Source: Mesaphorura yosii (taxonomy: Eukaryota; Arthropoda; Collembola; Poduromorpha; Tullbergiidae). From it: a DNA stretch of 54,382 nt. Position 1 is the first letter of the stretch. Every line of letters begins with the position of its first letter. The translations under genes were made by a program, and so were the position numbers. The DNA lies in contig WIXG01000454.1 in assembly GCA_009869945.1 (NCBI GenBank), positions 1 to 54,382 on the forward strand. Reading direction: 5' to 3'. A model generated the notes under the pieces. The model made no database searches and was not told where the DNA came from. It worked only from the letters and a program-made list of their open reading frames with translations. Shown here piece after piece: positions 4,145-51,740 of the stretch.

Positions 4145-4975
4145 AGCAGTCTTCCGTAATTTCCCCGAACTTGCCTCCACGTGGACGATGCAGAGTCCAA
4201 TCAGTTGTAATTCGAAGGCTGGCCTTCCATGTTCGCAAATTCACCGGGCATTCAGTTAACTGCTGTCATTATCTCGTAATTATTGATCATGTAATCTCTT
4301 CAAACGCTTCTGCAAAGTTTTACAGGGTTTACAGCGTGCCAGAACGAATTTTGAGTGATTGGGTCACGCATTATTGGTAATTTGGATGCATTGATATAAA
4401 TAGCTCCCGACTTAATGACAAAAGCTCCAGTCTATAAAGGTAAAACACTGAAACGAATGCACCGCGAAAGTTCGCGACACCAAAATGAAACCTACCAATA
4501 TAATTGCTGGTGGAGTACCATGAATAATACAAGCAGGCCTTCATAATTTCCCCGAACTTTCCGTGGCCTGGCTCCACGTGTGTGGGCCGTGGACGATTTG
4601 AAATCCAGCCATCGTAATTACAGCCGAGGGTAGTCAACAGTTTACAATAATCGCCGATCCAACGGTGGTCTACTTCAGTTAATTGTACCACGATTATAAA
4701 AAAAACTGGTCATAATGTCATTCATTGACGCTCACGGCTCTTTCAAAGTTTTGCAAACATTTAGCAGGGTTTACAGCGTCAGTACAAGTTTTCGATTGTT
4801 GCACAATTAGGCCACGATCGGTGGTCGATAATTTGAATGTATTGATATTTCTGTCATGAGTAGCTCCCGATTCGGCGACAAAGGCTCCAGTCCATTAAAG
4901 GTGCTAAAGCAAGCACACCAAAGACCAAATTGACGACGATTCCCAGTCATGAAACCCACAACTTCAAAACTAAAG
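4145..4975. repeat. tandem duplication of a chemoreceptor 5' region
   Basis: Two diverged copies lie head to tail, about 4145-4505 and 4530-4975. Matching anchors in order are TAATTTCCCCGAACTT (4157 and 4544), AGGGTTTACAGCG (4324 and 4766), TAGCTCCCGA (4401 and 4861) and ATGAAACC (4485 and 4949). The spacing between copies grows from 387 to 464 bp, so indels have accumulated. The second copy leads into the gustatory receptor. The first copy keeps a start codon and a few similar codons, then stops after 12 codons, so it is the stump of a duplicated gene or a duplicated promoter. Confidence 0.8.
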
Positions 4976-6255
4976 AAACTAAAGATCCCCAGCTCGCTAT
5001 CAGTCGCCTTCTTTATAGGGAAACTTGTCGGCTGCATCCCATTCCACAAACCTATACCGAGCGAAAAACGCTGCCCACGCCTATTAAGCATCTCATACTT
5101 GATCCTAACCACGTCCGCCGAGCTCTCCGTGTTCACATACTACGTCCTGATCACCATCCCTTTCAATTTCCGCCCTTCAATCCAGATCTCGGAGGGGATC
5201 GTCCTGTCCACGGCGATGGTGGTGGTTGTGGGCTTCGAGACAGCAAAGAGGCTGTACTACATTGCGAGATACAAAATGGTCTATGAATTGGTGGAGAGGG
5301 TCCGTGCACTGGAGACGCTCGTAAAAGGCCGGGGATTCTGCAGCAGCGGCGGCAAATGGGCGGTCATCACCTTTGTTTGGTGGGCCTTCTTGGCGCTAAT
5401 CGCTGCATCGGTCGTGCTGCAGGCGCTCCAGATCGGAGGCCAAAGTAAATGGTCCCCAAGGGCGGTCGTGCAGATAACAGCCGGCATTCGGAAGGCATCG
5501 ACCGTGTTCTCGACGGTGCTGTTCATTCGATTGGGGCAGAAGTTGCTGTCATGTTATGGTGGGGTGGCCGCTGAGATTACGGCTACAATCGGGGGCAGGG
5601 GTTGGAGCCAGGAAGGAACGGCCACCGCACTTCGGGAGACACAAGGGTGCTTTGCACTGTACAACAAAATGGCAGGGTTCATCGCCCTCGTTTCCGTATT
5701 CGAGTCGAGCGTCTTGTGTATCCTCTTACCCTACATAGGGGTTTACTACTGGATGGAGGAGAATAGATTCTGGGTCTGTGAGATGGTGCTGCTAGGGGTC
5801 ATGCATGTGCTGAGGGTCGTGCTGATTGCCGGCATGGGGCAGGCTTTTGAGGATCGGGTGAGTAATGCCAGCCTGACCCAGATTAGTTGGCAAATTATTA
5901 AGAAATCTGAAATTCCTGTGAGGAAGATGAAGGAGGCGAAAGCAGGGGTTCGATTGAGAATGCTGTTGGTGAAAACGCAGAACAACTTTCTGCACTGCAA
6001 ATCCACCGACCAAATTCTCGGGGAGCACATCCTCGCTTGGAACTGGCGCCTCACAGCTTGCAACCTGTTTGACATCAACTACAGAATGTTTTCGCTGGTG
6101 AGGAGTTGGAATTGGAATTCAATAGCGAGCATAAATCTTACATGCCTCCTTTGATGCTTTTGCAGGTCCTCAGCACGATGATGACGTACGTCATGTTCAT
6201 GTTCCAGCTCCGGATAGCTGAGGACACGAGTGGGCTGGGATGCGGGAGGGGCTGA
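4949..6255 (+). CDS. gustatory receptor (7tm_7 family), copy 1
   Basis: A hydrophobic multi-pass protein with the insect gustatory-receptor C-terminal signature: an FDINYR segment before the last intron and TYVMFMFQL in the last exon (family motif TYxxxxQ). Exons inferred: 4949-5857, 5927-6097 and 6166-6255, giving 389 aa. The last intron (6098-6165, GTGAGG...TTTGCAG) is clear. The first intron (5858-5926) is inferred because the related gene at 22084-23481 is spliced at the same place; here it is 69 nt, in frame and stop-free, with an AAG acceptor, so it is less certain. Shared blocks with the other copy include GKLVGCIP, SEGIVL, CFALY, LRVVLIAG and LAWNW. It is a probable sensory membrane receptor; ligand unknown. 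Confidence 0.85.
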
Positions 6256-11163: not shown

Positions 11164-13635
11164 CTAACATTTTTCAGTATTTGTGATGAGAGAATTGTAC
11201 AAAATGTAACCCGAACTTGGAATCGTTGATATTGGTCCGTGCTTGCCGTCCTGAGGAAGTGCGGTGGGTTCATATCTATATTCGCACTCAGTTAGCGTCA
11301 GCGGATTCGGATTTGGCTTCGGGTCTCCGATTGTGCAACACATCACATCATAGACTGTGCGCAACTGTTCCGTGAGGCTCTCGAACCCAGGCCGTTCACC
11401 CGGATTCAGCCTCCAGCAAGATTTCATGATCTCGTATATTTCGTTACTCGCACAGTGCTGAGGTTTGATCGGAAATGGAATCACGGCCTCATTCAGCCGC
11501 AGGAGATGCAACAAAGCTATCTCATCGGCGATGTCTGCCCACGGAAGGGCACCGAGATTAAATATTTCCCAGAGCACCATACCGAAGCTCCACGCATCAG
11601 ATTTTAAGTTGTACACCCTCGCGTTGCTCTCCAGCGTCTCAGGCGCAGCCCAACGCCAAGGGAATTCCAAACGTGTTGTCGTCGTGTACACATTCGACTG
11701 GCCAAAAAGTCGATGTGATAGTCCAAAGTCGCACAACTTTGCGGTGAGACCAGCGTCCAGCAGTACATTGCGAGCGGCGAGGTCACCGTGCACGATTCGT
11801 TTTCCAGACAGGAACGTCATGCCCTGGGCAATCTGCATCGACCACTTGACCAAATCGACGGCGCTGAAGGTGTTGTCGCCTGGGGCAACGAAACCCATGA
11901 AATCCGACCACGTACGTGTTGCCGTGTGACTAAATCCTCCTCTCTGCACCCCGACCCGCAAGAACTCTTCGAGACTCCCGTTTGAGCAGTACTCCATCGC
12001 AATCTGAAGCTCACACTCTCGGATGCGTGCTGTGCAGGCTCCGACGAATCGTACCACATTTTCATGTCCTCCCTCCTTTTCGATGTACATCATTGTTTTA
12101 AGCTCAGCGAGTAGCGCGATGAATGTAGACGGTCCGACGCTGCCGCTGTCCTTGGAATTTAAGGTTTTCACTGCAACGGCTCCGCACCCCTTTAGGCTGG
12201 CCAGGCGCACGGCCCCGAAGCGACCTTCGCCAAGATGGCGCTCAAGCACGCAGTCCTCCGCGTCGTACTCATACATAGTGTCGTACTTCAGCCGCCGAAC
12301 GTCGTCTTCGTTCAGGCTTTCGTCTCCGTTGAGAAATTCATCCACGGCTCGCTGTGTCAACACCGCATTTCGCCGTCTCAGAAGAACGAAAAGCGCCGCC
12401 GCTGCCGTGAAGATGGCGAGAAGCACAGCCGCGCCGACGCTGAACAGCGCGTCACGTAGGCGTGATCCCGACTCCGCCCCGGTCGGACACGTCTCCTCGT
12501 CTTCGTCCTCCCCGTATGGACAATCCTGCACTCCGTTGCAGAATCCGACGTCGCTCGTGTTCTGGATGCAGACGCCCGTCACACCACAGGCGAGTTCTTC
12601 CCCACGCACGCAACAATTGCGCGGAGTGCAGCGTTGCAAAATGTTTGGAGGTTCGTCTTCATCGCTTCCATCCGCGCAATCTGCTCGACCATCGCAAATT
12701 TGGTCCAAGCGCAGACACCTTCCATCGCCACAAGCATGCGCTTGGGCACCGCAGGTGACTGCACGCCTGATCCAGGCCACGTCGTTGGCATTTAGCGTCG
12801 CGATGTACTGCAAGGCGCCCTCGTCGCATCGGCGAGTGGCTCTGTTCTCCAGGAAGTTGTTGGTGAACCCGACGAGCACGGTTCGGTTGTCCTGCCTGAT
12901 GTACGACCCGCTTCCTCGGATGATGCACTTCATTTCGGTGTTCGTAACGGTTCCGGTGGCGGTGTTGAACCCGCAGGCGCGATCCCCGAATGGCAGGGAA
13001 GTTATGACACGCCAATGGCGCAGGCACTCGTCTTCAGACTGGAACACAAGGTTGAGCGTGATGGGGTTGAAGGTCTCGTTTCGAGATGGCCACCCGGATT
13101 GCAGGATCCCTGAGCCCGGCCCAGGCTTGGGTGTGGGGTTGGAGGCGCCGGGTAGGCAGACGGAGCGTAGGTGGGAACCCGAATCGAAGTGCAGAGGCAG
13201 CGGTTGACGCAGATGGATGAGCACGAGGTTGTATTCCTCCTCCCACCACGGCGACTTGCCGTCGGGGTTAATTTTCCAGACGATGCCAGGGTGCGGTGTA
13301 ACATGAGCCACGCTCAGTTCGAGCACATGCGCAGGATTAATCTGCACGTGCACCGTGAAATTTGCATTCATACAAAGTCGCCACGTTGGTGGTCCCGGAG
13401 CGACGACGAACTGAACAAACGAAGTGATCAACAAGTCCCGGCTCAGAATTGTGGCTGGGAAATACTCAACTTTACCGCTGAGCGACATACGACGGACAGA
13501 CACAGTCCAAGGAGCTAGTTGGAACTCGTCGTACGTCATTTCACAATCTGAGTCTGGCACGGACCCTGCTGCAATGCGAGTCAGGAAAGTTGCCAAAATA
13601 AAGAAGAAGAAGCACAAATACGAAGACGTCGACAT
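11164..13635 (-). CDS. receptor tyrosine kinase with trypsin-like pseudoprotease and LDLa ectodomain
   Basis: Intronless, 823 aa from ATG 13635; the frame is open further upstream but only with non-ATG codons. Signal peptide about 1-23. Residues about 36-295 follow the chymotrypsin-fold order: APWTVSV start, a LITS strand where LTAAHC is expected, YNLVLI for DIALL, VCLPG, SGW, RGSGSYI where GDSGGPL is expected, and a closing WIRRAV helix. Catalytic His is absent, Asp is replaced by Asn136, and the Ser242 context is altered, so it should be inactive. Two LDLa-like Cys modules follow (about 295-336 and 342-383), then a membrane helix (about 396-420). The tyrosine kinase spans about 464-760: GEGRFG 469-474, Lys490, Glu511, HGDLAARN 616-623 (Gly for the usual Arg), DFG 636-638, APE 664-666, and a kinase insert near 560-590. 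It should be catalytically active. Ligand unknown. Confidence 0.85.
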   Translation of the reverse strand: MSTSSYLCFFFFILATFLTRIAAGSVPDSDCEMTYDEFQLAPWTVSVRRMSLSGKVEYFPATILSRDLLITSFVQFVVAPGPPTWRLCMNANFTVHVQINPAHVLELSVAHVTPHPGIVWKINPDGKSPWWEEEYNLVLIHLRQPLPLHFDSGSHLRSVCLPGASNPTPKPGPGSGILQSGWPSRNETFNPITLNLVFQSEDECLRHWRVITSLPFGDRACGFNTATGTVTNTEMKCIIRGSGSYIRQDNRTVLVGFTNNFLENRATRRCDEGALQYIATLNANDVAWIRRAVTCGAQAHACGDGRCLRLDQICDGRADCADGSDEDEPPNILQRCTPRNCCVRGEELACGVTGVCIQNTSDVGFCNGVQDCPYGEDEDEETCPTGAESGSRLRDALFSVGAAVLLAIFTAAAALFVLLRRRNAVLTQRAVDEFLNGDESLNEDDVRRLKYDTMYEYDAEDCVLERHLGEGRFGAVRLASLKGCGAVAVKTLNSKDSGSVGPSTFIALLAELKTMMYIEKEGGHENVVRFVGACTARIRECELQIAMEYCSNGSLEEFLRVGVQRGGFSHTATRTWSDFMGFVAPGDNTFSAVDLVKWSMQIAQGMTFLSGKRIVHGDLAARNVLLDAGLTAKLCDFGLSHRLFGQSNVYTTTTRLEFPWRWAAPETLESNARVYNLKSDAWSFGMVLWEIFNLGALPWADIADEIALLHLLRLNEAVIPFPIKPQHCASNEIYEIMKSCWRLNPGERPGFESLTEQLRTVYDVMCCTIGDPKPNPNPLTLTECEYRYEPTALPQDGKHGPISTIPSSGYILYNSLITNTEKC

Positions 13636-22083: not shown

Positions 22084-23481
22084 TCACTTTCCGCCCCTCT
22101 TCTCTGTAAGGGCGCTCGTGTCCTCTGCGATCCGGAGCTGGAACATGAACATGACATACGTCATCCCTGTGCCGATGATCTGTGAAAGAGGAGAATATAA
22201 TCGGGACACGAATTTCAAGGCTAAGAGATAAATTCGCTGCTCACCATCGAAAACAACCTGTAATTAATGTCAAACAGGCCGCATGCACTCAGTTGCCAGT
22301 TCCAGGCGAGGAGGTGTTTGGCCAGGATCCACTCGGTGGATTTGGTTTTCATTTCCTGACTCATTTCCAGCCACAGCATCCTCGAGGGAATCTGCTCTTT
22401 CGTCCTGGTCATCTGCAACAATGCATTTCAGCTTACTGGAGCATCCAAGCATTAGCGCCGGCGGACTCACTGAATCCCCCACAGCCTGCCCCAGACCCGC
22501 AATCAGAACGACTCGCAATGCGTACAGCACCCCAGCGACGAGCATCTCACTCGTGGTGTACGAATTATTGACCCCCGCGTAGTAAACAGCCATGTAGACA
22601 CTGAGTGGGCTGAGGATCGAGGACTCGAGCACGGAGATTAACGCGAGGAACCCAACTATTTTGCCGTAAAGAGCAAAGCACTCTTTCATTTCTTCAAATA
22701 TGGAGGCGAGGTCTTTTGTGTTGTCTGACGACCTGTCTCCACTTCCAAACCCATCCAGGAACTCGGCTGCAAATCCATCATAACACGCTAGCAGCTTGTC
22801 TCCCAGCCCAACGAGCAGCGCGGTCGAGAACGCACCCGTCGCCTTCCAGGTGAGCAACAGCAGAGTCGCGATCGTGTCGTCGAAGCGGTCCTTGCCAGAG
22901 CTGCCGACGATTTGGAGGGCCATTGAGGCGAGCATAAGAGACCAGAATGCCCACACGCCGTATTTGTTCAGAGGGCGGTTGCTGCTTTTGGAGAACCCCC
23001 GGGCAATGACCCTTTCTTTCAGTGCCCTCACTTTTTCCAAAATTTCAAAGAGAAGTTGATGTCTGCCCATGAAGTAAAGCCTCTTCACTACTTCGGAGCA
23101 TGAAAGGACAATCACCGTCGCTGTTAGGACGATTCCCTCGGAGACCTTGACGGTAGGCGAGAAGGTTGCGGGGATGATGCGGAAGGTGAAGTTTAACAGA
23201 GCTGCGATGTTTACGAGGAGTGTGAGCGTGACGTAGGCGAGAGCGGGGAGGCGGCGACAGGGTTTCTTCTTGCTCTGTAGTTGGGGGACGCAGCCAATCA
23301 ACTTTCCAATCAATACGGAGATGGATAGCGAGGTTGGAGTGGCGGGTCTCCATCTCGTCCATCTCGACAGCTTTGTTCTTGGTGATGTGGTGCCAGATTG
23401 GGCGTCTTCTCTATTGTGCAGATGCATTTGTGCGGAAGGAGAGAACTGAATCACTCTGAGCGCTTTGGGCGATTTCGACAT
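22084..23481 (-). CDS. gustatory receptor (7tm_7 family), copy 2
   Basis: Three exons: 23481-22471, 22412-22245 and 22179-22084, with introns of 58 nt (GTGAGT...TTGCAG) and 65 nt (GTGAGC...TCACAG), both phase 0; predicted 424 aa. The last exon carries MTYVMFMFQLRIAEDTS, almost identical to copy 1 at 4949-6255. Other shared blocks are GKLIGCVP, VSEGIVL, CFALYGK, LRVVLIAGLGQA and FDINYR. The N-terminus is longer than in copy 1 by about 35 residues. A likely intact chemosensory receptor; the two copies sit 16 kb apart on opposite strands, so they are an older dispersed duplicate. Confidence 0.88.
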
Positions 23482-24035
23482 GACCTTTGTGGCGGCTCCA
23501 TGAGGTCATTCCTTAAAACGGAGTCAACACGAGGAAACTCGAGGCACGCAAAGTCATGCTTTGTGCCGTGTTAATTCGATAGATTCGGTTAATGCTTTCC
23601 GAAATTCATGTCCTCGAGGGATCTCGAAAATCGAAGAAGTACATCATGTTGATCACATACTAAGCGACTTTACTAAGAACAATTCAGAGTTAGAGCACGC
23701 AATTCCCATTTCCAAGGCGAATAATCCAGGGACCTGTCTTGGAAAACAATTCCTCTGAAAACCGTCGGCAAATCGGCAGTTCTCATTCATGCATTATATT
23801 AGCTGTTGTTTTCGAACGGGACTTGCTCGAGATGCTCGGCTAGTTTCGCCCATGACGATGAGACGCTTTTACTCATAGATAATTTTGTCTGACTCCATTG
23901 CCATTCTCCTCATACTCTTTATTCTCCAAGTTTCTTAGATTTTGGTCGCTGCTCACGGCAAATGACGATGTTTTACCGAAACCGGACTTAAACAATTGAG
24001 TATTCATTTTCGAATCTGAGAAACATACAATATAC
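23482..24035. other. intergenic
   Basis: Between the gustatory receptor start and the DJ-1-like stop. No coding or RNA feature recognised. Confidence 0.5.
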
Positions 24036-27996: not shown

Positions 27997-30128
27997 TTAC
28001 AGACGGGGTACAAAGTCGAAGTACTGTGCCATTGCATAAACATTTCCTACTTTTGCCAGTGCTTCAGTTAGTGTCGGAAGTCTGAGAAAGGACTTATTCT
28101 CTTCATTCATACCAATTGTTGGCAAGGTTTTCGACTTCAGAGAGAGAAGATTCAGAGTGAGGTCATTTTTAGGACCAAGATGTGATTCCGCCACTGGAAT
28201 TGTGGTGTTGAGTATCTTCAATGTAGTTTCATAATTCTTCAACTAATAATGTGCATCAGCAAGACAAAATTTCATTCGTATCGTGGCCTCATCCAATCAA
28301 TTCTCTAAGAAATGCCACCGAGCTAGATGCGATTTGTAATGCCTCCGCAAAATTCCCATGTTGCAACATATGATAGCAGAGTTTAGACAAATAGGCGCCC
28401 TTGAAGCTTATCAGGAGATCATTTTTTTTCTGAAATCGAAACAAATGATGGCCATGTGACAAACATTCTCTTATAAACTCACTAGACTCTACAAGGGCTG
28501 GCTCCAATGCTTCCAAAATGGACCCCATAACTATTACTTCATTTAGCATGCTTGACCTATAACGTAACCATTTCAGCAGCCTTGATATAATCCCAGTTTT
28601 CAAACTTAATCTCACAACTTGCTGCACCAGTCGATGAATTGAAATTCGATTCAGATTTCTGTCTATCATTGAGTACTTCTCAAGAAGTGTCAACCGGATT
28701 CAATTTCCGCTTCTGTTTCATCTTTCAGCACTTTCTTTAAAAATTCCGTGGTTGTGTTCTGAGGATGAAGATAACCAAGGTGATTGATTATTTTGATTGC
28801 TACTCTACCAACTTTCATGCACTGAATTCTCTTCAGCGTAATTTTCCAGACATTGTAAATTGTAAGTGAGTAATCATGGGTGTTTAAAACGTTCTTGAAT
28901 CTGTCATCGTTCAGTAACTCCATCTCTGATTCTTCAAACCTCTCCAGGTATTTTGGCACACACTTGTCATCGTTGCTGGAATACTTCTGCTTCATGTATG
29001 CCACGGATTGTTGTAATGCCAGTGGTAGTCGTTGCAATTTATCAGCCAATTCCTCCGCATGGGAATCTGCTGTATTCGGAAGACCAGTCGCTGGATTCAG
29101 AATGAAGTTAAGAGCTTCCTGTTTTGTCAGAACATCCAGATTCAGTTGATTCCTGCGTAGGACACCACCCAAATCACTTCGTCGAGTGGTTATCAATATT
29201 CGAGGGACATTGTAGCCTGTGTCAACTGTGACCGGCTGAAATTCATTGAAGTGCGCTTCTTCTTCCAAATTATCATACACGAACAAGCATTCCATGTTTT
29301 TGGTTATCTCTTGAACACGTTCTGCAATCTCTGCGCTAGATACCTTCTTATCTACGTGAATGCCATGGTTGCTTAGGAATTTAACCAATGATGACCGCAT
29401 CGAATCGATACTATCTCCATTAATCCAAATCACATTCATACGTTTGCAGTGTTCGTGTATGTATTTTCTGACCAATGCAGATTTTCCAACACCACCTAAC
29501 CCTCTTACACAATGTTCCCCGTACTGGATTCGGAAGATGAGTCCAGAAACATTTGGTCTATTCTATTCACCTGCTCTTCTCTTCCAGTAAAGTTGTACGG
29601 TAGTCTACCGACATCAAATCGGAAATAATGGCTTGAACTTTTGGAGTGAAATTGGAATCCAGGAATTTCTGTCTGGATCTTTTCTGGAAACAAACACAAT
29701 GCCAGAAGTTTTTTCTCCGTTCTGCAACGTAAAATAATTCGAGGTGTACTACTTACCAACAAATTGAGAGAGTCCAACCTCGTTAAGCACTTGTAATAAA
29801 TCAACTTGCCTCCCTTCTTGATTCCAAACTTTGAGTGTCCAGCGTACGGAACTCATAACACTCGGATAATTACTTCCTAATTCCTTCTTAATTTGATATA
29901 TCTGATCTTCAGATTTGATGAGTTGATCTACCACTTGATGCCATTTCCTGAACACCACCTCGTCTGCAAGACCTCCGATTTTGACCAGGTCGTCTACAAA
30001 TGAGTTGAATACGAGTTAGTTCCAAATGAATACTCAGAGATGACACGATCGGAGTGATAGAAGTAACTTGCCCCACCTTTACAATGACTGCTTCTACGAG
30101 CAGACGGAGCTGGAGCTGGTTGAGCCAT
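27997..30128 (-). pseudogene. Death domain / NB-ARC / TPR-like STAND protein, frame-disrupted
   Basis: Exon 1 (30128-30077) encodes a Ser/Pro/Ala-rich start. An 83-nt intron leads to exon 2 (29993-29757), a Death-like domain with the closing pattern W-x11-LLQVLNEVGL. A 73-nt intron (29756-29684) leads to exon 3 with NB-ARC: FTGREEQ, P-loop GLGGVGKSALV (about 29499-29467), Walker B region LFVYDNLEE, sensor LITTRR and GLP-LAL motif. Then come a helical spacer with SIHRLVQ and TPR-like repeats to 27997. Such STAND ATPases act as immune or apoptosis switches (compare Apaf-1). Damage: the frame shifts just before the P-loop (near 29505), again near 28690, and stops separate 28289 from 28242. Assembly errors could mimic this; otherwise it is a recent pseudogene. 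Confidence 0.75.
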
Positions 30129-35864: not shown

Positions 35865-38800
35865 ATGGGTAAAAGCCACTCCAACGCGTCTTCAGCCGGT
35901 TCAGCCAGCCAAGGCCCGACCACCTCCGATCAGCTCCTCAAACTCCACAGCCCCGTCGGCTCCGAGCCACTGATCTGGCCTTTCCCGGGCGATCAACGCC
36001 AGCAGCACTACCACAGCCGGGGTGGGAATCCGAGCGAGGGCGGAGTCGGTGCGGAGATCGCAGACACAATCAAGTGAGTGAGGTTCAAAGTTGGGTCGGT
36101 GTAATTAGTTGGTTAATAGATTTGCTAATTCATCTATTCCATCATTCCCTTTTCTAGGTGGGTCTGCGACGACTTCCCAACACTCAAGCAAGCCCTTGAC
36201 GTGAATGACGTTCTCAAATCGTATGATGTCAAGAGTTACGACTCGATGAAGACATTATGCACAAAGTACAATCAGAGTATCGACGCAATTCTCCAGTTGG
36301 TAGGTTTTACCATCCTTAAATGGCTACAGCCTCTCATAAATTCCATTTTAAAACGCCAATCAATTATGTAAACAGGAGAAGGGCACCTCAACACTCCTCC
36401 ATCGCCTCCAGCAACGCCCCTCCCGCGGTCTCCTCAAGCACATCATCCAAAAAGTGTATAATACAGCAGTCACCGACCCCGAGAAGTTGAATCAGTACGA
36501 ACCTTTCTCCCCAGAAGTGTACGGGGAGACGAGCTACGATCTCGTTTGTAAAATCATCGACCAAGTCGACCTGAACGAGGAGGACGTATTCATTGATCTT
36601 GGGTCCGGCGTTGGCCAGGTCGTCCTCCAGATTGCAGGGCTCACAAAGTGCAAGACCTGCCTCGGGATCGAGAAGGCGGATGTGCCGAGCTCGTACGCGT
36701 TGGTGAGTGGCGAGCAATTTCTTGGATATTTGAAAAGTTTGGTTAGTAAATTCGCCCTTATTTTTCCTCGCAGGCGATGGACGTCAACTTCCGCAAGTGG
36801 ATGAAGTGGTTCGGGAAAAAGTTCTCCGAGTACAAACTCATCAAAGGCGACTTTCTGGACACGGCGAATCGCGAGAAGATCACCGGCTCCACAATCGTGT
36901 TTGTGAATAATTATGCGTTCGGGCCGATCGTTGATCACGAGCTGAAGGAGCGGTTCCAGGACTTGAAGGATGGTAATTCCTTACTATCGATCAATTTCCA
37001 CAGGTGTCTATAGCCGTATCTAATCCAAAACGCAGGCGCCCGTGTCGTGTCCTCCCGTGCATTCTGCCCACTCCAATTCCGGATAACGGAGCGAACCCTC
37101 GGAGACATCGGAGCCATCATCCACATTCAGGAGCTCGAGTCAACGAATGGAAACGTGAGCTGGACCAACAAGCCAGTCAGTTATTATTGCCACACAATCG
37201 ACCGCTCAAAGCTCCAGCGCTACTTTGAGTCAATCAAGAAGAAGCGGAAGCATGACACGAGCTCGAATGAAGGAGGTGCAGATGAGAACACCGGGCCAAC
37301 CACACGCCGAGCCTGGTCCGACTGGTGCTCAAAGTCGAATAAAACTTCAGAGGAAGACGAGGATGAGGAGCCTCTCAAGCGAAGAAGAAAGGGTAACAAG
37401 ACAAAGGCGAGAAACAGACTACGGAGAGCAAAAGGAAAGAAGCGCAAGCCAATCAAGATTATTGGGCTCGACCTCCTCCATCAATCAACCCTAAACTCAA
37501 CAACGAATGCTGACCACTCCCCCGCCAGAGGTACAATCGACCAGAAACTCACGCAGCTGACGACGATCGCTACAACTGGTTTGTTTCACCACGAAGAACT
37601 ACCTCCGAGCTCAGACACGCCGTACGCACTTCAAAAGTTGCTCGAGCTGTACAGGAAACAGATGCTCGGGATCATTCAGGGAATGAAATCTGACGAGTTT
37701 AGACAGCAAGTCCAGGATCAGATCGAGATGGAGAAGGAAAAGCGGGTTTATTTATTGAGCAGGGCGGAGGCTCTGAACAGCTCTATTAAGAAGCTCATTG
37801 AGGACAGCACGGAGCTTTTAAAGCTTAAGTTAGAAGAGTTGAACATCAAGTCGGATGGGGCGACGGCGGATACTTTACTTTCAGAGGCCCGCTCGATAGT
37901 CATCAAACACAAAGAGATTCAGTCCAGGGCAGAGTCGCTCCAGTCGGAGGTTGACGAGCTGGAGAAGAAGAACGCACACCTCGTCGAGCTCCATAAGAAA
38001 GAGATACTCAAGCGTGCTGGGCTTGACGGAGGAAAAATGGAAGAAACAACTGCAAACGAGTACTGCCACAATTTCTTACTGAAGGAGCTCGTCCACACTC
38101 TTGAAGAGAGGAAAAGGCTGCAGAGGGATGCGAGCCGGTTTGGGGTTGAGGTGGAGCGGCTAGAGGAGGTCGTGAAGGAGCAGGAGAAGAAGAAGAAGAG
38201 GACAAGGAGCCAGCATCAGTACCCCGACATCCCGAGACAGGAGAAGATCAATGAGGAGGACCCTGACCTTCTTGCGAAGAAGTTACTCGAGATTGGGCGG
38301 CTTGTGGAGAGGCAGCAGCAGCAGCAGCAGAAGAGGGTGCCGGCTTCTAACGCAATAGTGGGTAGTAAAGTCCCGGCCGGCCCTCCGAGCGGCGGAGGCT
38401 ACCCGACCGCAGCCGCCCCACGCGTCAATTACCTCGAAGACCGGCTCGAGATGCTCATCACAAACTGCTTGAAGGAGGACAACCCCGCAGCAGCATCGGA
38501 CAAGAGGCGCCCAAAGACACCACCGCCGCCGCCGGTTTTGAGCGAGCACAAAAAGGTGCTGCAGCTGAGCCCCGACATTGCGTCTGGGCCGCCAACTACA
38601 ACAAAGAACGCACTCCGGGCTCATTTGGGGAGCAAGACGGCATCGAGTGCGGGCGGGACGGAGAAGGTGAATGAGCCACGGGCCTCAGGGCACGCGCAGA
38701 AGCACCAGCAGCAGGACGCCGGCACAAAGCGAACAATCGGCGACATTGTCAACACGGAAGTGGACCGGTGCCTGAAGCAAGAGCGCCGTGCTTCGGTCCT

Positions 38801-40817
38801 CGTCGCCGGGCCCGGGATGGAAGGACTCGGGGCGGTGCTTCAAATGCAATACGGCCAGCAGCCGCAGACACAAAAAGAGTCGCAGCCACAGCAGCGCCCT
38901 CCCTCCAGCGGTGGCGGTTTCGTCACAGAAGTCGTCCTAGGAGAAAAGGAGCCGAATGTCAACTCGGTCCTCCGCGTCGTCCGAAAGCGGGTGGACGAGT
39001 CACAGGAGTCCCCTCCAGCAACAAAGCGGTCTCTCTCAAGCCCGTGCCCGACGCAGCCCTGCAGCACGGCAGCCATCACGCGGATCCCGACGCCTGGCTC
39101 GCGTGTGCACACGCCACCCGCACCAGTACAGGACGCAAAGGCCACCGTGCAGCAACCCCGATCCCAGTCCCAACCCCCACCCGCAGACTCACCCCACCAG
39201 TGGCAGTCAAAGATCCAGCACAATTTCGACAAACTGTTTTTCCACGCGGCGGAGGCGAGGCGCAAGTCGACCGAGGCGAAGCAGAGGGAAAAGGAAACTG
39301 GTGTTGCGTCGGCAACGCCAGCGAGCAGCAGCGGAGGAGACGGCGAAAGCCCCGATTCAGGGCTCGGGAAGGATTTGCCGTTGCACGATTGTAAGAGGTC
39401 AGAGTTGGCCAGCGGTTTGCCAAGAACCCCGTCCCCATCGCATGCGGACGAGGAGGACGAGCTCGTGTTTGGTGGCGGGTATAAAGAGTGGGTGGATGAT
39501 GACGAGCCGCCGCCAACTCCGAGGCTCGTGAAGCAGGAGAGTACAGGGAGCAGTGCCAGTGGGGGGCAAGAGAAGGAGGAGATTAAAGAGGAGATTCCTG
39601 AAGTGCAGTCAAATCAAAAGCAGACGACGCCGGTAGCAGAACCACCTTCAGCTCCTCCAGCCTCTACAGCAGCAGCTCCCGCCCCTTTAGAGAGAGAACG
39701 CCCTCCCTCAACAGCCTCCTCCACCTGCTCGGAGCACGGCCCGCACCGCCCCAGCTCGACCGCTTCCAGCGCGGCGTCTGAGGCCCAGCACAACACGCCA
39801 CAGCACTTTAAGAAGCGCTGGCATCAGACGCAGCAGATGGAGGCTACTATTAGCAGCACGAGCATTGGTGAGGTTGCTGCTGGAAAGACAGAGACTCCAA
39901 CGAGCACAGCAGCCAGCAGCGGTGGAGGTGCTCCAGAAGATTCACAACTGAGCAAGTTCAGACCGAAGGGGAAGCTGTACATTCAGCAGCAGCAGCAGAA
40001 TGAGGCGGGTGGAGGCACTCCACCACCCCCACAGCAGCAGCAGTCGCACGGCTCCGTTGCAGACTACCAGCCCATAAGCACCGCCAGCATCGATCAGAAA
40101 CATCCGCAGCAGATGCACTACAACTCACAGCCTCAGACTCCGCCGCAGCCTCACGCCAAACCCCAACTAAAGAACATTGTCCTCAACGGAGGCCAACCCG
40201 TGTACAATAAAGCGAATGGGAGCGTGACGACCGCTGGAGTCCAGCAGCATCCACAGCAGTTCGGAAATGGAGTCATAGCCCAGCAGCAGCAGCACTACGG
40301 CCAGCCACACAATTACACGCAGCAGCAGGCGGCGCCTCCGCTCCCGCCTCCGCCGCCACCTCAGCACTACGGTCAGCCGCCGCCTCCTCCACCGCCAAGC
40401 ACAGCTCACGGCTACGGCCATGGCAGCGGCGGAGGGCAGTATTACAATCAAGGAGGGGCGAGGTTCCAGCAGCAGCAGCAGTATGGAGGCTCGAGCGCGA
40501 TGGGGCCGTCGCAGCAGCAGGCGTACCACCACCAGCCTCCTCCACCGAGTGCCTCCATGTCGCAGCAGCAGCAGCACTACGGCTACATGCAGCCGCAAAA
40601 GATGCACCCGGGCTACCACCAGCAGCCGGAGACTGGGCGCTACCCCGCCGCAGCAGCAGCCGCCGTGCCAGTCCACCAACTCCCGCCGAGGGGCTACGCC
40701 TACAACCAGCAGCAGCCACAGCGGTATGGTCATTATAATCGCTATCGAGGAGGAGGAGGGCAGCAGCCGCCTTATGGTGGAGGAGGTTATTATGGAGGTG
40801 GTCAGCAGCGGAGGTAG
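35865..40817 (+). CDS. DOT1L: histone H3-K79 methyltransferase DOT1-like
   Basis: Five exons: 35865-36073, 36158-36299, 36376-36702, 36774-36972 and 37036-40817; all phases agree, 1552 aa. The catalytic DOT1 fold occupies roughly residues 60-370: SAM-binding DLGSGVGQ (191-198), substrate/SAM loop VNNYAFGP (about 270-277), and the closing VSWTNKPVSYYCHTIDR. It methylates lysine 79 of histone H3 on nucleosomes without a SET domain. A Lys/Arg-rich stretch follows (DNA/nucleosome contact), then coiled coils (about 480-660, the region that in human DOT1L binds AF9/AF10-type partners), and then a very long Ser/Pro/Gln-rich tail ending in Gln/Pro/Tyr/Gly repeats. The whole C-terminal three quarters is one exon. 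Convergent with the exchange-factor gene. Confidence 0.95.
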
Positions 40818-41256
40818 TCGAATAGGAGATGGAGTTATCATTAAGTATTTAGTGTGCAAGACAAGTGTTTTTCACTGCCACACGAGAGTCGTCGCGAATG
40901 CGACGCGTCCTCTCATTTTTCGCCGACGATGTGTACAGTTTGTGAATTTGTACAAATTCCTACTACATTTCGTTGTATTCTTGTATCATTGTTTTGTTTT
41001 TCGTTGTGTTTCACTCGACTGTAAAGTACAACAAATATGAATCACGAGGAGGAAACGGATCACTGCCCAGCCCACTTTTTGTAAAATGTTGTCATTAAAG
41101 TGAGTGAGTCTTTTGTTAATACGTCGACGTTCTTCGTGTAATAATTCACGTGTAGTCTAGTGGCGACTAATCGCCTTGTATAAAACAAGGAATTGGGGTT
41201 CTAGCAGTAGTAAATTATTATTAACGTGCATTTGTTGATGAAATATTGTTGACTAA

Positions 41257-41262
41257 AATAAA
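41257..41262 (+). promoter_or_regulatory. poly(A) signal of DOT1L
   Basis: AATAAA 440 bp after the DOT1L stop. It lies 41 bp from the opposite-strand signal at 41304-41309, so transcript ends from the two genes probably overlap. Confidence 0.6.
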
Positions 41263-41303
41263 ACAGCACGAGAGATAAAAACCACGTTCGAAAGAGTACC
41301 AAA

Positions 41304-41309
41304 TTTATT
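41304..41309 (-). promoter_or_regulatory. poly(A) signal of the PDZ-GEF gene
   Basis: AATAAA on the minus strand, 48 bp after the stop at 41357. Confidence 0.6.
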
Positions 41310-41356
41310 AACAAAGTAGACAAATTCCCACTGAGATTCCTGTACAAAAGAAGTGG

Positions 41357-44300
41357 TCATTTCCCATTCCCGCCGCCCCTCGCCATCGTCCCCGGAAGCA
41401 CACTCGAAGACTCCTGGCTGAGGAGCATCGACCCGGGCGGAGGGGGCAAGCTCGCCGTCGTGCTGCAGCTCGAGTCGGACCCCGTCCGCTGGTGCGGCTG
41501 CTTTCTAGAAGCGGGAGGCTCTTTGATTGTGCACTTTTCACTAAGACTCATGAGTTTCTGGTAATTCTCGACAGAGCCCCGCACTTGAATCCCAGAGCCA
41601 CCGAGGGAGCTGGCTGTGGAGGGAGTTGGGCTGGGCGCTTTCTTGATCGTTGCCGTGTTGTTAACAGCAGCAGGCCTCCCTCCCTCACAGCCATAACTCA
41701 TCTCGTACAGCCGCTCCTCGTCCCCAACAACTTCCAACCTCCCCAAATAAGTTTTAATTCTCCGAATCATGTTCATCTCCTCGTACATCCGCTTCGCGTT
41801 CACTCCAACTCCTCCCCTTCCCTTCCCCTTTGTCGTAGTAACAGCCTCGAGCTGGTTCATACTCGCCAGGTTCGGCATCTGACTCGTGTCGAAGGGAAGG
41901 TTGCTCATTTCGAGTATTGAACGGACTTCTTTAGCGAGCATCCGCATCTTTTCGAAATTCACCAATTCTTGGAGGTTGGAGGAGTTTCCGAGGTGGATGA
42001 AGGTCAGATCTTTGCGGATGACTGGGTAGAAGGGGATTAATGGAGAGGTTGAGGGGGCGTTTAAAAGAGTCCTGTACTTGCCCATATTGCGTGTTGGATC
42101 CATGAGCAACTGCATTTCCTGGTAGGCACGTGCGTACTTTCTTCCTAGTCTCTCCCACGTGCTCTTTAATCTGGAAACTGCTCCATGGCCAAGACCGGAT
42201 ACGATAGCAAACATGCTGTTGTAGTTCCGGCACTCTTTGCACTGCATTGCTATTTTGATGAACCTCTTGATTATAGCTGACCTCCTCTGCATTGAAGGCT
42301 CACGAGTGATTTCGGTCACGACCCAGAACGTTTCTTTATTAACCAGTTGCGCGAACCGGTCCAGATTCGTAGTTGGGCCAATCTCAAATAGGTCGTTTAT
42401 GAACTCTGTGCTGTCGATCCTCCTGAAAATCGTGTAGTCTTCGAGTGTGAGTTGGAGGGCGAGTTCGAGGGGGTTCAATTGCAAGAAATTAACTTCAGAT
42501 TCGGATTGGAGTGATGGAATCGACTCATCCGGGAGGAGCGACAACGTATTCGAGCTGGGGCGAAGATAATACCTGGCGCCGAGGGGGATCCTCTCCGCCA
42601 GAGAGTCGAGTGTGTCTGGGAGACGGCCCTGCTTTAAGATTCCATTGATGGCAGAGACCTGATAAAGGCTGTAGTCTCGGGAGTTTGACTGCTGCAGGTC
42701 GGGGAACTCGGAGAGGGCGAGCATGACGACTTCACGTGCGGTGGTTTCTTTGTTCACTAAAAAGTACTTGTACGATTGGTCTGGGCGGTAGATTTTGAGC
42801 ACGTTCTCGGGAAAGTCGATGCGGCCAGGGCTCTGAGAGCTCGATTCGGGTGTGACGCGTGGGGAGACTCCATCCGAAGCAGGCCTCCCCATTAAGTTAA
42901 CCCTCCACCAGTTTTTAATGTCGTGGAACCTCCTGCGGTGTTCTTTTTTACTCGACGCTCCTCCAGCTGAGGAGTGAATCACGTGCACTTGACTCTGCAA
43001 TTTAGGAATCAAAGGAGCCTTGCTGTGGATGCACTCGTGGTGGCCGAGAAAATTGCACTTGACTTGGAGGACGAGGTGGGTTGAAGATCTGAGCATCTCC
43101 ACCGCTCTAGCAAGAGTGGAACACTGCTGTCCATTAATAGAGATTAACTCGTCTCCAACTCGGAGTCCCTGCACGGACTCCGCCACCTGACTCACGTACA
43201 CTCCATACCCGTTCTCGCTCCCGCCCATCACCTGGAACTGGAGTGGCTCTTCTCTGTCGGAGCGGGTGAGTGTTATCGATCGTGGACGGGATTTTGCTGA
43301 GCAGGCGATTTGTAGGAGCCTCAGTTGTCCATTCATTCCCTCTTCGTCCAATAAACATTGGAATCCAGTAAGAAACCTCATTAAATCCCGACTACCTTCA
43401 AAGTCCACAAAGTGGTTGTTGACCCATAGTAAAACTACTCGAGTGACCCTGTCTTTGATGCTCTCATCCCCTTCTTTGAACCACTCTAGTAATTTCTCAG
43501 CTAGCAGTTCTCCTCCAGTGAAGATCCTGTACGTGAGGAGAAAGTCTTCAATATACGTAGGGTCACTCGCCGAGTTCTCTTGGTGGATGAGTTGGCTCAT
43601 TAATTCAAGTGCTGTGCCTCTTATGATTATTCTGCTCGTATTTCCATCAACCTGCTTCAATTCAGTTATGAGAACTGGTGTGTTGTTGACGGTGTGCGTG
43701 ATTTGGCACTCTTGCCCTTGGCGGAGGATCCTAAAGTAGTCTTCTTGCGTGACGCAGATGAATTGGCAGTCATCGACACGGGTTCGCATCTCCCCATCGA
43801 ACCACTGCGTGTCGAGTGTTGGGGGAAGGCCGAATGAGTCGCCAGGACTCAGTACTTGAATTTGGTCACCACGCTCAATCTGCACGGAGCCGTGGACGAC
43901 GACGGACCAGGAGTCGAGTTCTTCTCCGTGGTTCAACACGACTGTGCCCGCCCTGTCGACGACTGCGAAGACCATCACGGAGCAGAGCGCCCTCCTCGTC
44001 GTGGTTGTCAAATCATTGAAAGCGGAGAGATGCTGAGTGAACTCGAGCAGGATTTGAATGTCTTCTGGAGTGCGTTCGAGTGGATCCCTCTCTAGGCAGT
44101 CGCGAACGGCGTCCCTGAGCACTATGCTCGTAGTATCATCGAATTCCCCATCCGCGTCCAGATCCTCATCGTCACTGTCAACTGTAGATTCGACCAGCCC
44201 ATCCAAATCCATCAAGTCCGAGCCAGAGTACCCAGCAGAGCTCGACTCCTCCGAACTCGTCGTCGAATAAATCGATCCCCTGTCAATCTCACTCGGAATG

Positions 44301-44692
44301 CAGAGCATGTCGCTTGGCTCGAGGATAAGGCACTCGTTTGGCCTGCGACTGTGGCTCGGATGGCGCCCGAACGTCGTCACCGGGAGAAACATGTTCATGT
44401 CGATAAAGACGGAGCCGGTGAGGAGGATGTAAGAGTAGTTGGCCACCTCACCCCTGCAGTACAGAATGTCGTTGGCTGCTTTGTGCTCGTACTCTGCCTG
44501 TCTCCCAATCTGGTGGAGGTAGCCATCGTCGTAAGAGCGGAGGCAGTCGAATTGGCGGAGTGTGGCATGGATTGTGTTGAGGTCCGACTCGGCCCGCTTC
44601 CATGGTGGCTTCTGTATTGAGGTAATGAAGGGCGGTGGGAAGTTTCGGTGGAGTTGGACAGTCGGGATTTGGGACGAGTCGGTAGTGGTCAT
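41357..44692 (-). CDS. RAPGEF2: Rap guanine nucleotide exchange factor, PDZ-GEF (RAPGEF2/6, fly Gef26)
   Basis: One uninterrupted frame of 1111 aa from ATG 44692. Domains in order: a degenerate cyclic-nucleotide-binding-like fold (about 60-130), a second one (about 210-325, SPGDSFGLPP), the REM/RasGEF-N domain (about 347-450), PDZ (about 468-545, GYGVYVSQVAE), Ras-association (about 625-712) and catalytic RasGEF (about 735-930, with FIKIAMQC and NYNSMFAIVSGL). This order is diagnostic of PDZ-GEFs, which load GTP onto Rap1 and control cell adhesion and junctions. The usual long C-terminal tail is shortened to about 180 residues. No intron is seen, unlike the flanking genes. The start lies 500 bp from the divergent RRP5 gene. 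Confidence 0.93.
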   Translation of the reverse strand: MTTTDSSQIPTVQLHRNFPPPFITSIQKPPWKRAESDLNTIHATLRQFDCLRSYDDGYLHQIGRQAEYEHKAANDILYCRGEVANYSYILLTGSVFIDMNMFLPVTTFGRHPSHSRRPNECLILEPSDMLCIPSEIDRGSIYSTTSSEESSSAGYSGSDLMDLDGLVESTVDSDDEDLDADGEFDDTTSIVLRDAVRDCLERDPLERTPEDIQILLEFTQHLSAFNDLTTTTRRALCSVMVFAVVDRAGTVVLNHGEELDSWSVVVHGSVQIERGDQIQVLSPGDSFGLPPTLDTQWFDGEMRTRVDDCQFICVTQEDYFRILRQGQECQITHTVNNTPVLITELKQVDGNTSRIIIRGTALELMSQLIHQENSASDPTYIEDFLLTYRIFTGGELLAEKLLEWFKEGDESIKDRVTRVVLLWVNNHFVDFEGSRDLMRFLTGFQCLLDEEGMNGQLRLLQIACSAKSRPRSITLTRSDREEPLQFQVMGGSENGYGVYVSQVAESVQGLRVGDELISINGQQCSTLARAVEMLRSSTHLVLQVKCNFLGHHECIHSKAPLIPKLQSQVHVIHSSAGGASSKKEHRRRFHDIKNWWRVNLMGRPASDGVSPRVTPESSSQSPGRIDFPENVLKIYRPDQSYKYFLVNKETTAREVVMLALSEFPDLQQSNSRDYSLYQVSAINGILKQGRLPDTLDSLAERIPLGARYYLRPSSNTLSLLPDESIPSLQSESEVNFLQLNPLELALQLTLEDYTIFRRIDSTEFINDLFEIGPTTNLDRFAQLVNKETFWVVTEITREPSMQRRSAIIKRFIKIAMQCKECRNYNSMFAIVSGLGHGAVSRLKSTWERLGRKYARAYQEMQLLMDPTRNMGKYRTLLNAPSTSPLIPFYPVIRKDLTFIHLGNSSNLQELVNFEKMRMLAKEVRSILEMSNLPFDTSQMPNLASMNQLEAVTTTKGKGRGGVGVNAKRMYEEMNMIRRIKTYLGRLEVVGDEERLYEMSYGCEGGRPAAVNNTATIKKAPSPTPSTASSLGGSGIQVRGSVENYQKLMSLSEKCTIKEPPASRKQPHQRTGSDSSCSTTASLPPPPGSMLLSQESSSVLPGTMARGGGNGK

Positions 44693-45191
44693 TTTCTAGG
44701 TAGGTTGGCGTTGGCTGTGGGTATAAAAACAACTCCACATTAATTATGCGGTTTGAAGCTGCATTTACTAGTCAGCTGTACTATTGATAAAGACTTACGA
44801 TTCGCTCTGGCGCTGGCTGTGGCGGGGCTGTGTGGCTGTGGCCGAGCAAGATGAAAGTTAGCCTTTGGGAGGTGTTTTGAAATTTGCCTTGGAGCGGAAG
44901 TGGGCAAGTTGATTACGTGGTGTGCATTGAACTCGACTCGGCTGAGCTGCAAGGAAGGCAGCAAGGACAAGCGGGCGACCGCGTTCAAACGTGCACGCAC
45001 GTTCCTTACACGGATTTGTGAAAGTGGCTCAGAGAGACGGCAAGAGTACAGACGAGGCACTGAATTAAGTGGTTTATTTTTTGGTTGAAATTCTTTTTAG
45101 TCAATTAACGCATAATTAACAGAGCTGACGTGTTTTCGAGGCGCCTGACTACCCAAACTCCACTTTTACAACTTAAATCCTCCCGTTTCAA
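44693..45191. promoter_or_regulatory. shared upstream region of RAPGEF2 and RRP5
   Basis: The two start codons face away from each other across 499 bp with no intervening gene. A TATAAAA on the minus strand side of RAPGEF2 is seen near 44720 (GGGTATAAAAACAA in plus orientation). The interval is likely to contain both promoters; a bidirectional element is inferred from layout only. Confidence 0.45.
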
Positions 45192-48100: not shown

Positions 48101-48614
48101 GGCCCGCTCTCTCCTTAGGCTGATGACAAAAAAGTTCCCCAGCCACGTTCAAGTATGGAGCATGGCCGCCCAGCATCTTTATCGCACCCACCAATTCGAT
48201 GAGGCCCGGTCTTTATACACCCGAGCCGTCGCCGCCCTCCCCCCACGCGCCCACGTCGAGATCATCTCAAAGTTCGCCCAGCTCGAGCTCACATTTGGCG
48301 ACTTTGAGCAGGGGCGGTCATTATACGAGAAACTCGTCTGCACCTACTCGGCGCGCGTCGACATTTGGCTCGTGTACATTAACCAGTTAATCAAGCAGAA
48401 GGACAGCAGTGGGGCGAGAGCTTTATTTGAAAGAGTTGTAGCGAGCGGGGCTGTCAACCCACGCAAGATGCAGCCTGTGTTCAAGAGGTGGCTCGAGTTT
48501 GAAAGGGAGGAGGGGACACTGGAGAGTGTTTGTGCGGTGGAGGAGACGTGTGCGGGGTACTATAAAGAGAGGTTGGGGTTAAGTGTGCTGGATGGCGGGG
48601 AGCAGTTGGATTAG
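45192..48614 (+). CDS. PDCD11: RRP5/PDCD11 ribosome biogenesis protein, short
   Basis: Four exons: 45192-45431, 45518-45643, 45716-45883 and 45972-48614, in phase; 1058 aa. A lysine-rich acidic start is followed by S1 RNA-binding repeats: about six can be picked out by the G-x-V...GV-G-F/S pattern between residues about 120 and 640. A charged Lys/Glu linker and C-terminal HAT (half-a-TPR) repeats follow (about 780-1040, with paired Trp/Tyr helices). In yeast and human, RRP5 acts in the nucleolus, binding pre-rRNA for both subunits; S1 repeats serve 60S and the C-terminal S1/HAT part serves 40S processing. Human PDCD11 has 12 S1 repeats and about 1870 aa, so roughly half the S1 array is missing or unrecognised. 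An alternative ATG lies at 45204. Confidence 0.9.
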
Positions 48615-48651
48615 AATTCTTGTATTCCTCTTTCAGATTTTGATTTTTGTT

Positions 48652-48657
48652 AATAAA
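48652..48657 (+). promoter_or_regulatory. poly(A) signal of RRP5
   Basis: AATAAA 37 bp after the RRP5 stop, six bases from the AASS signal on the other strand. Confidence 0.65.
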
Positions 48658-48663
48658 ATAACA

Positions 48664-48669
48664 TTTATT
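48664..48669 (-). promoter_or_regulatory. poly(A) signal of AASS
   Basis: AATAAA on the minus strand 30 bp after the AASS stop at 48700; the two mRNA 3' ends must overlap if both signals are used. Confidence 0.65.
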
Positions 48670-48699
48670 CCATAAATCCTTGATTTGCTCTCGATTCCC

Positions 48700-51600: not shown

Positions 51601-51740
51601 TCTTCGCGGCGGATGGCGAGGGTTTTTCCGCGGATGTCGTGGCGGAGGATTGGTCGGGTGGTGTTGTGGCGGATGGAGAGGGTCGAGCGGAGGAGGGTGG
51701 AGTGGAGGAGGTGAGGGCGGGGGAGCCGGAGGAGCAGCAT
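48700..51740 (-). CDS. AASS: alpha-aminoadipic semialdehyde synthase (LKR/SDH), mitochondrial
   Basis: Four exons: 51740-51156, 51088-50608, 50542-49064 and 48992-48700, introns of 65-71 nt, all in phase; 945 aa (human 926). The first about 30 residues are Arg/Leu/Ser-rich without acids, as in mitochondrial import signals. The N-terminal half is lysine-ketoglutarate reductase: [44 protein letters not shown]. The C-terminal half is saccharopine dehydrogenase, with NAD-binding GAGYVSAP at about 506-513, [11 protein letters not shown], and the closing [14 protein letters not shown] and [11 protein letters not shown]. The bifunctional enzyme converts lysine plus 2-oxoglutarate to saccharopine and then to aminoadipate semialdehyde and glutamate, the first two steps of lysine breakdown. 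Fusion of both activities is standard in animals. Confidence 0.96.

Follow-up and report, generated by a model that had tools for sequence, protein, structure and literature searches.

Receptor tyrosine kinases (RTKs) bind their ligands through immunoglobulin (Ig), cysteine-rich, Sema, cadherin and similar binding domains. In the Venus kinase receptors the head of an RTK is borrowed from an unrelated binding protein, and in HGF and MSP, which act with MET and RON, a dead S1 protease fold signals through an RTK. The gene described here lies on contig WIXG01000454.1 (C454 below) of the springtail Mesaphorura yosii, whose positions 1 to 54,382 (54,382 nucleotides, forward strand) are referred to as the window. 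It is best explained as a whole, and in our judgement probably, as an intact retrogene for a single-pass RTK with a VEGFR/PVR-like kinase, in which a dead S1 domain and two LDLa modules replace an Ig-type head and bind a partner that dimerises the receptor. An LDLa module in an RTK ectodomain is shared with ALK and LTK, which have MAM domains, another kinase family and no S1 domain in the available parts of PMC9953206 and PMC8662651. In those parts, LDLa occurs only with ALK/LTK among the human RTK ectodomain families and the word trypsin is absent (PMC9953206), and LDLa is unique to ALK among the kinases compared (PMC8662651). The initial annotation of the locus knew of no described RTK with such an ectodomain, and no RTK with a protease head was recognised in the portions available of the open-licence papers searched.

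The coding sequence runs on the minus strand from 13635 to 11164 and encodes 823 amino acids; its coordinates agree with those of the initial annotation, which named no strand. The frame is open from stop to stop over 900 codons (13866-11167), with its first ATG at 13635, no ATG upstream of it in the open frame and a TAG stop at 11166-11164. A signal peptide and a single membrane helix, both called by hydropathy only, and a cytoplasmic tyrosine kinase identified by Pfam give the protein the architecture of an RTK. Domain matches and hydropathy thus agree with the earlier proposal of a signal peptide, two LDLa modules, a membrane helix and a complete kinase in one frame, and the kinase lysine (K490), HGD (616-618), DFG (636-638) and APE (664-666) are retained, as had also been noted. 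The Pfam LDLa match to the whole protein spans amino acids 294-327, and scanning the ectodomain alone yields two LDLa stretches; no Pfam match to an Ig domain was found in the ectodomain. By its architecture the window protein is an RTK, and by its kinase it is VEGFR/PVR-like, without the Ig head. Third-position G+C content differs little from one part of the gene to another (0.69 in the head, 0.60 from LDLa to helix and 0.62 in the kinase). Behind the kinase stands a YxxM motif, of the type bound by PI3K SH2 domains, in the form YDVM in the window gene and YDRM or YIRM in the paralogs L090, L092 and L095 and the decayed copy L097; it would fit coupling to PI3K. Of the 20 cysteines in the ectodomain, seven belong to the S1-like part, and one additional cysteine ahead of the second LDLa module would permit a further interdomain disulfide; the pattern varies across paralogs.

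The S1 homology of the head emerged from profile alignments. With hhalign, the head scored 41.0 over 220 columns against a profile of eight S1 sequences, compared with maxima of 24.8 among 400 shuffles, none of which reached 41.0, and of 21.4 among 126 natural segments without S1 homology, and the eight-sequence animal S1 profile recognised it at 7.8 bits, compared with 6.8 for the best of 1,518 reported shuffles (3,000 made). A profile of nine heads of the gene family, including that of the window, matched C1s (3e-11) and thrombin (2e-10) in the PDB, where it retrieved 387 distinct sequences at E<=1, the best 60 of the 387 all being S1 proteases. Six of the nine head-family members, the window copy not among them, match Pfam Trypsin at E<=10 (best 2.9e-7), and the family aligns to two insect modular proteases over 237 columns (hhalign, 98.0%, P 2.3e-13). 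Fold comparison of an AlphaFold2 (AF2) model of the head also led to S1 proteases, as the initial annotation had expected; S1 sequences were part of the alignment behind the model, and the paralog profile backs the result independently. The trypsin-fold claim thus holds by hhalign against shuffles and by the paralog profile, and ordinary single-sequence searches do not show it. Searched by itself, the S1-like region had no relative at E<=10 in a set of 880 candidates, a single-sequence PDB search ranked designed proteins alongside hepsin (0.25) and tonin (0.85), and pairwise Smith-Waterman comparisons of the head with single S1 domains gave z values of at most 2.0. A search with residues 1-395 gave eight matches at E<=1, each aligned over 20-24% of the query; LDLa is listed for every one of them and they were read as LDLa-driven, and a scan of viral contigs with the modular protease P0002 gave no match. 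The window copy alone reveals its S1 homology only by profile alignment; it is the paralog family, compared at the sequence level, that settles the fold.

In chymotrypsin numbering of catalytic sites and cysteines, the window head reads TSFVQF where S1 proteases have TAAHC, with His57 lost, and has N136 at the position of Asp102 and S242, within RGSGSY, at that of Ser195. Of the catalytic triad, His is therefore gone, Asp has become Asn136 and Ser is kept; the alignment bears out the earlier description of a protease without catalytic His, with Asn for Asp and RGSGSY for GDSGGP, and adds that the Ser195 position is still Ser. The activation cleavage site of S1 proteases, R/K-IVGG, is absent from the window head, the N-terminus of which reads CEMTYDEFQLAPW. 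Cysteines 168, 182, 191, 220 and 122 are kept and the pairs 42-58 and 136-201 are wholly gone. Across nine aligned heads, His57 is absent from all, the Asp102 position holds Asp in three, Asn in five and Phe in one, the Ser195 position holds Ser in six and Gly, Asn or His in the remainder, and seven retain Asp at the position of Asp194; positions 102 and 195 have been altered differently in different heads. As His57 is missing, the S1 heads would be unable to act as S1 enzymes, and the window head, judged from its residues, is an S1 fold and not an S1 enzyme.

The genome searched comprises 93.0 Mb in 1,127 contigs, and matches to the window protein numbered 69, grouped by position into 54 loci. 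Loci were aligned with a purpose-written spliced aligner using GT-AG introns, giving gene models without cDNA. Eight multi-exon paralogs (L089-L096) have no stops or frameshifts in the aligned part and a search with the head of L091 added two more, L125 and L126, so that the S1-LDLa receptor family comprises eleven genes including that of the window, with the ten paralogs on ten other contigs. Head identity to the window copy is 41-46% in five of the eight aligned paralogs and 25-26% in the other three; its closest paralogs share no more than 46% of head residues and 57% of kinase residues with it. A helix lies between LDLa and kinase in 10 of the 11 gene models; the model of L092 lacks it and has a hydrophobic stretch in another frame inside a predicted intron, which makes that intron, at residue 424, unsafe. 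L126 has one LDLa module, not two. A further copy, L097 (C826:5500-13000), is intronless and decayed, with three stops and two frameshifts, and is aligned from residue 326 onward. In L125, an S1-LDLa receptor on C1030, the kinase reads HLD at its catalytic loop and DFS where DFG is expected; here a pseudokinase may sit beneath a pseudoprotease.

Eight intron positions are shared in the same phase (window residues 73, 424, 465, 541, 613, 655, 733 and 763), each in three to six of the ten paralogs, with two safe introns at 424 (L089 and L091); the count covers introns shorter than 1,000 bases. The window gene has none of the eight. Introns 541 and 733 are shared with members of the window's kinase clade by L096, whose kinase lies outside that clade, and by L126, which is not in the tree, and are therefore probably older than the window copy. 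With the introns of related genes absent and the open reading frame intact, the window gene is probably an intact retrogene, a reverse-transcribed copy of a multi-exon paralog's spliced mRNA. A retrogene origin would imply that head, LDLa, helix and kinase were already continuous in the template mRNA, across the helix-kinase junction at residue 424 as well. The second intronless copy, L097, suggests that retroposition may have struck the family at least twice, and its stops and frameshifts indicate that decay is visible where it happens. Ratios of nonsynonymous to synonymous differences per site (pN/pS) between the window gene and the eight paralogs are 0.49-0.74 in the head, 0.31-0.41 in LDLa and 0.36-0.60 in the kinase, with pS saturated.

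A tree of 43 kinases unites 31 rows from this genome with the springtail kinases Folsomia P0010 and Orchesella P0012 in one clade (support 100/99), which lies next to the insect and crustacean VEGFR/PVR-like kinases and apart from them; L097, L109, L121, L125 and L126 are not in this tree, L109 having been dropped as its catalytic-loop pattern was unmatched. Another kinase tree placed the window kinase with arthropod kinases named VEGFR-like in a group of 14 rows (87/85). A constraint-defined PVR subgroup is reported only in deuterostomes in the available part of PMC8662651, and 'VEGFR/PVR-like' accordingly denotes here a grouping with the arthropod kinases so named.

Heads of other kinds are found on related kinases. 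Among 36 loci inspected (34 of the 54, with L125 and L126), dead S1-LDLa heads are present in 11 and in the decayed L097, Kelch heads in five (L102, L104, L105, L106, L112), CLCA heads in three (L098, L100, L101), subtilase heads in two (L107, 7.5e-30; L109, 7e-28) and C-type lysozyme heads in two (L099, 1.1e-12; L111, 3.1e-4, below the cut-off and accompanied by an Ig domain). Ig heads number seven, above the Pfam cut-off in L115 and L121, below it in L116, L117 and L119 and assigned by kinship in L118 and L120; small cysteine-rich heads number three, of which L103 and L108 match Antifungal_pept and L114 was recognised by eye, and the heads of L110 and L113 have no assigned type. Head and kinase occupy a single open frame in the Kelch loci L102, L104 and L106, the subtilase locus L109 and the lysozyme loci L099 and L111; for the three CLCA loci and also for L105, L107 and L112, joining is inferred from neighbouring frames. 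Read by eye against known subtilase motifs, the catalytic His of the subtilase is Gln in L107 and Ile in L109, where the catalytic Ser is Asn. Spliced alignment with hen lysozyme places Asn at Asp52 in L099 and L111 and Ala at Glu35 in L111; the Glu35 position of L099 spans a doubtful exon join and no claim is made for it. No HExxH motif was seen near the CLCA exons, as provisionally bounded. Three unrelated hydrolase folds therefore seem, from their residues, to have lost catalysis on related kinases. On balance, we lean towards the view that this lineage made one VEGFR/PVR-like kinase into a combinatorial repertoire of at least seven kinds of head, among them three separately recruited dead hydrolases as ligand-binding heads. 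Heads would have moved from one kinase branch to another and copies would have been dispersed in part by retroposition, with the window gene as one intact retroposed member.

Of the S1 domains compared with the family profile, those of the insect modular proteases P0001 and P0002 gave the highest scores (42.9 and 42.8 bits). In the springtail genome, the modular serine protease genes L127 (C298:39700-42600) and L128 (C961:5500-8600) have a degenerate S1-like half and an LDLa-like stretch followed by an active-looking C-terminal S1 domain; the degenerate half matches Trypsin at 3.9e-5 in C961 and at 0.0012, below the cut-off, in C298, and LDLa is below the cut-off in C298 and recognised by eye in C961, which also has a Sushi match. 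As direct donors these genes have a fitting order, but with 31.4 and 29.7 bits for their degenerate halves, compared with 42.9 for an insect modular protease, they are not singled out. At L121 (C251:71900-77900), an LDLa-Sushi-trypsin protease gene stands directly upstream, on the same strand, of a separate Ig-type VEGFR-like gene. A read-through origin from these neighbours was set aside, their order being LDLa, Sushi, S1 and not S1-LDLa-kinase. For L094 and for L093/L095, head and kinase trees disagree (approximately unbiased test, p 0.0075 and 0.034, with groups defined once the trees were known), which suggests that heads were exchanged between kinase branches. Exchange is suggested and not proven, since the groups are post hoc and neither a single clade for the nine S1 kinases (p 0.055; 0.26 without L096, 0.095 without L094) nor a single Kelch clade (p 0.106) was rejected.

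In an RTK of this kind, the dead protease groove and its exosites would form the ligand-binding surface, and the LDLa pair could act as a Ca-dependent stalk or a second binding site. Binding of a soluble partner would dimerise the receptor and trigger PVR-type signalling, possibly through YxxM and PI3K. The most likely partner would be a protein of a protease cascade, such as a serpin or other inhibitor, or an active modular protease; the initial annotation had suggested a protease inhibitor, a protease or a clip-type cascade component as possible ligands.

Several results weigh against this interpretation or parts of it. Pfam Trypsin does not match the window protein at E<=10, a bacteria-dominated S1 profile does not recognise the window head (181 of 1,343 reported shuffles were at or above its score), and for the C-terminal half of the head alone 19 of 100 shuffles reach its score with the eight-sequence profile. 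The AF2 head model was conditioned on S1 sequences and had no negative control, and single-sequence AlphaFold of the ectodomain failed, with a predicted local distance difference test (pLDDT) value of 30.2. With a residue other than Ser at the Ser195 position in three of nine heads, conservation of the pocket is uneven. No poly-A tract, shared flanking word or target-site duplication was found in about 460 bases on each side of the open reading frame, so that it is the introns that carry the retrogene claim; loss of poly-A and target-site duplications is expected for an old retrocopy. The intron positions in turn come from the spliced aligner and not from cDNA, and the L092 model is faulty at the helix. 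The interpretation as a whole draws on genomic DNA.

That two neighbouring genes or an assembly chimera were joined by chance is hardly credible: the unbroken frame and the ten multi-exon paralogs on ten other contigs, all with the same head-kinase order, rule this out at the DNA level and uphold the initial annotation of head and kinase as one gene. The window copy could also be a processed copy becoming a pseudogene, in which case only the multi-exon paralogs would matter. It lacks all eight paralog-shared introns and the other intronless copy, L097, is decayed, but its 823 codons have remained open despite the divergence from its closest paralogs (head identity no higher than 46%, kinase identity no higher than 57%), it retains the kinase motifs and pN is well below the saturated pS, which makes such a fate unlikely.

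Two further explanations accept the receptor and concern its role. It may be a sink or decoy, whose head titrates inhibitors or proteases with kinase output being secondary or constitutive; loss of His57 in nine of nine heads with retention of most S1 cysteines is what a binding-only domain would show. However, kinase pN/pS is below that of the head in seven of eight comparisons (the exception being L094), which a mere sink would not need, and we consider this role improbable. A possible, if tentative, alternative is that pseudo-hydrolase heads are worn-out effectors of innate immunity that sense microbial inhibitors or wall fragments, with the repertoire displayed on blood cells or gut. It draws on the presence in one genome of three unrelated hydrolase heads (trypsin, subtilase and lysozyme) without catalytic residues on related kinases, on the many paralogs and on one conflict between head and kinase histories, but the Kelch, CLCA and Ig heads are no obvious fit, and the S1 heads resemble several kinds of protease and not only immune ones. 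Signalling by a dimerised, S1-headed RTK remains the preferred explanation of the window gene, the features of which are given in Table 1.

Table 1. Features of the S1-LDLa receptor gene, in window positions (aa, amino acids)
Feature	Position	Strand	Basis or remark
Complete intronless coding sequence, 823 aa + TAG	11164..13635	-	no intron in spliced-aligner self-alignment
Signal peptide, aa 1-24 (MSTSSYLCFFFFILATFLTRIAAG)	13564..13635	-	hydropathy
Dead S1 (trypsin-fold) domain, aa 31-294 (264 aa, trypsin-like motif order)	12754..13545	-	
Site of lost catalytic His57, aa 69-76	13408..13431	-	His in 0/9 aligned heads
Asp102 position, Asn136	13228..13230	-	MAFFT column, D in 29 other rows
Cys191-Ser195 region, aa 237-245 (CIIRGSGSY)	12901..12927	-	S242 at Ser195 position, Gly241 at Asp194 position
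LDLa module 1, aa 294-336	12628..12756	-	Pfam PF00057 2.9e-8, above curated cut-off
LDLa module 2, aa 341-384	12484..12615	-	second PF00057 stretch; Cys pattern conserved in aligned paralogs
Transmembrane helix, about aa 397-419, then RRR stop-transfer	12379..12447	-	Kyte-Doolittle maximum 2.6
Juxtamembrane segment, aa 420-460, YD..YE motif as in VEGFR-like kinases	12256..12378	-	P0009, P0011, P0019 and paralogs compared
Tyrosine kinase domain, aa 464-758, VEGFR/PVR-like	11362..12246	-	Pfam PF07714 2.1e-63; trees
C-terminal tail, aa 759-823, YDVM at Y762	11167..11361	-	sequence

Elsewhere in the window, the conserved genes at 36352-51791, which encode a DOT1-type methyltransferase, a PDZ-GEF (RasGEF, cNMP-binding, PDZ and RA domains), an RRP5-like protein and a saccharopine dehydrogenase/AASS, mark this as an ordinary stretch of animal genes with long exons. 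Multi-pass proteins similar to chemosensory receptors are encoded at two places, 4934-6151 (plus strand) and 22273-23505 (minus strand), the former with a 7tm_7 match of 4e-4, below the cut-off, and the latter with none. An open frame on the minus strand at 28693-29562 has an NB-ARC domain (Pfam 3.9e-10), which is unusual in animals outside APAF1-type proteins, and a further open frame is present at 28292-28699.

The co-occurrence of intronless and intron-bearing members in one genome provides a natural record of how a fusion spread. Hydrolase folds without catalysis here serve as receptor heads, in a multigene family and on a type of kinase that is Ig-headed in the insect and crustacean relatives compared, and it becomes a testable question whether the substrate groove of a dead enzyme can turn into the ligand pocket of a receptor, and by what routes receptors acquire new heads. 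The arthropod VEGFR/PVR-like RTKs of Tenebrio (P0009), Anopheles (P0011) and crustaceans (P0018 and P0019) share with the window protein the kinase group, the HGDLAARN loop and the YD..YE juxtamembrane motif; P0009, P0011 and P0018 carry Ig domains, and S1 or LDLa is listed for none of the four. The springtail kinases of Folsomia (P0010) and Orchesella dallaii (P0012) fall within the clade of this genome's receptors and have no Pfam match outside the kinase, and hence no S1 or LDLa. The combination of S1 and LDLa is shared with the insect modular proteases P0001 and P0002 and with the C298 and C961 genes, the last two of which also match the order of the receptors in placing an LDLa-like stretch behind a degenerate S1-like half; unlike the receptors, the modular proteases have an active C-terminal S1 domain and no kinase in the stretches read. 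The Venus kinase receptors differ from the window receptor in their Venus flytrap head and insulin-receptor-like kinase, and in HGF and MSP the dead protease sits in the ligand, whereas in the window receptor it is the head.

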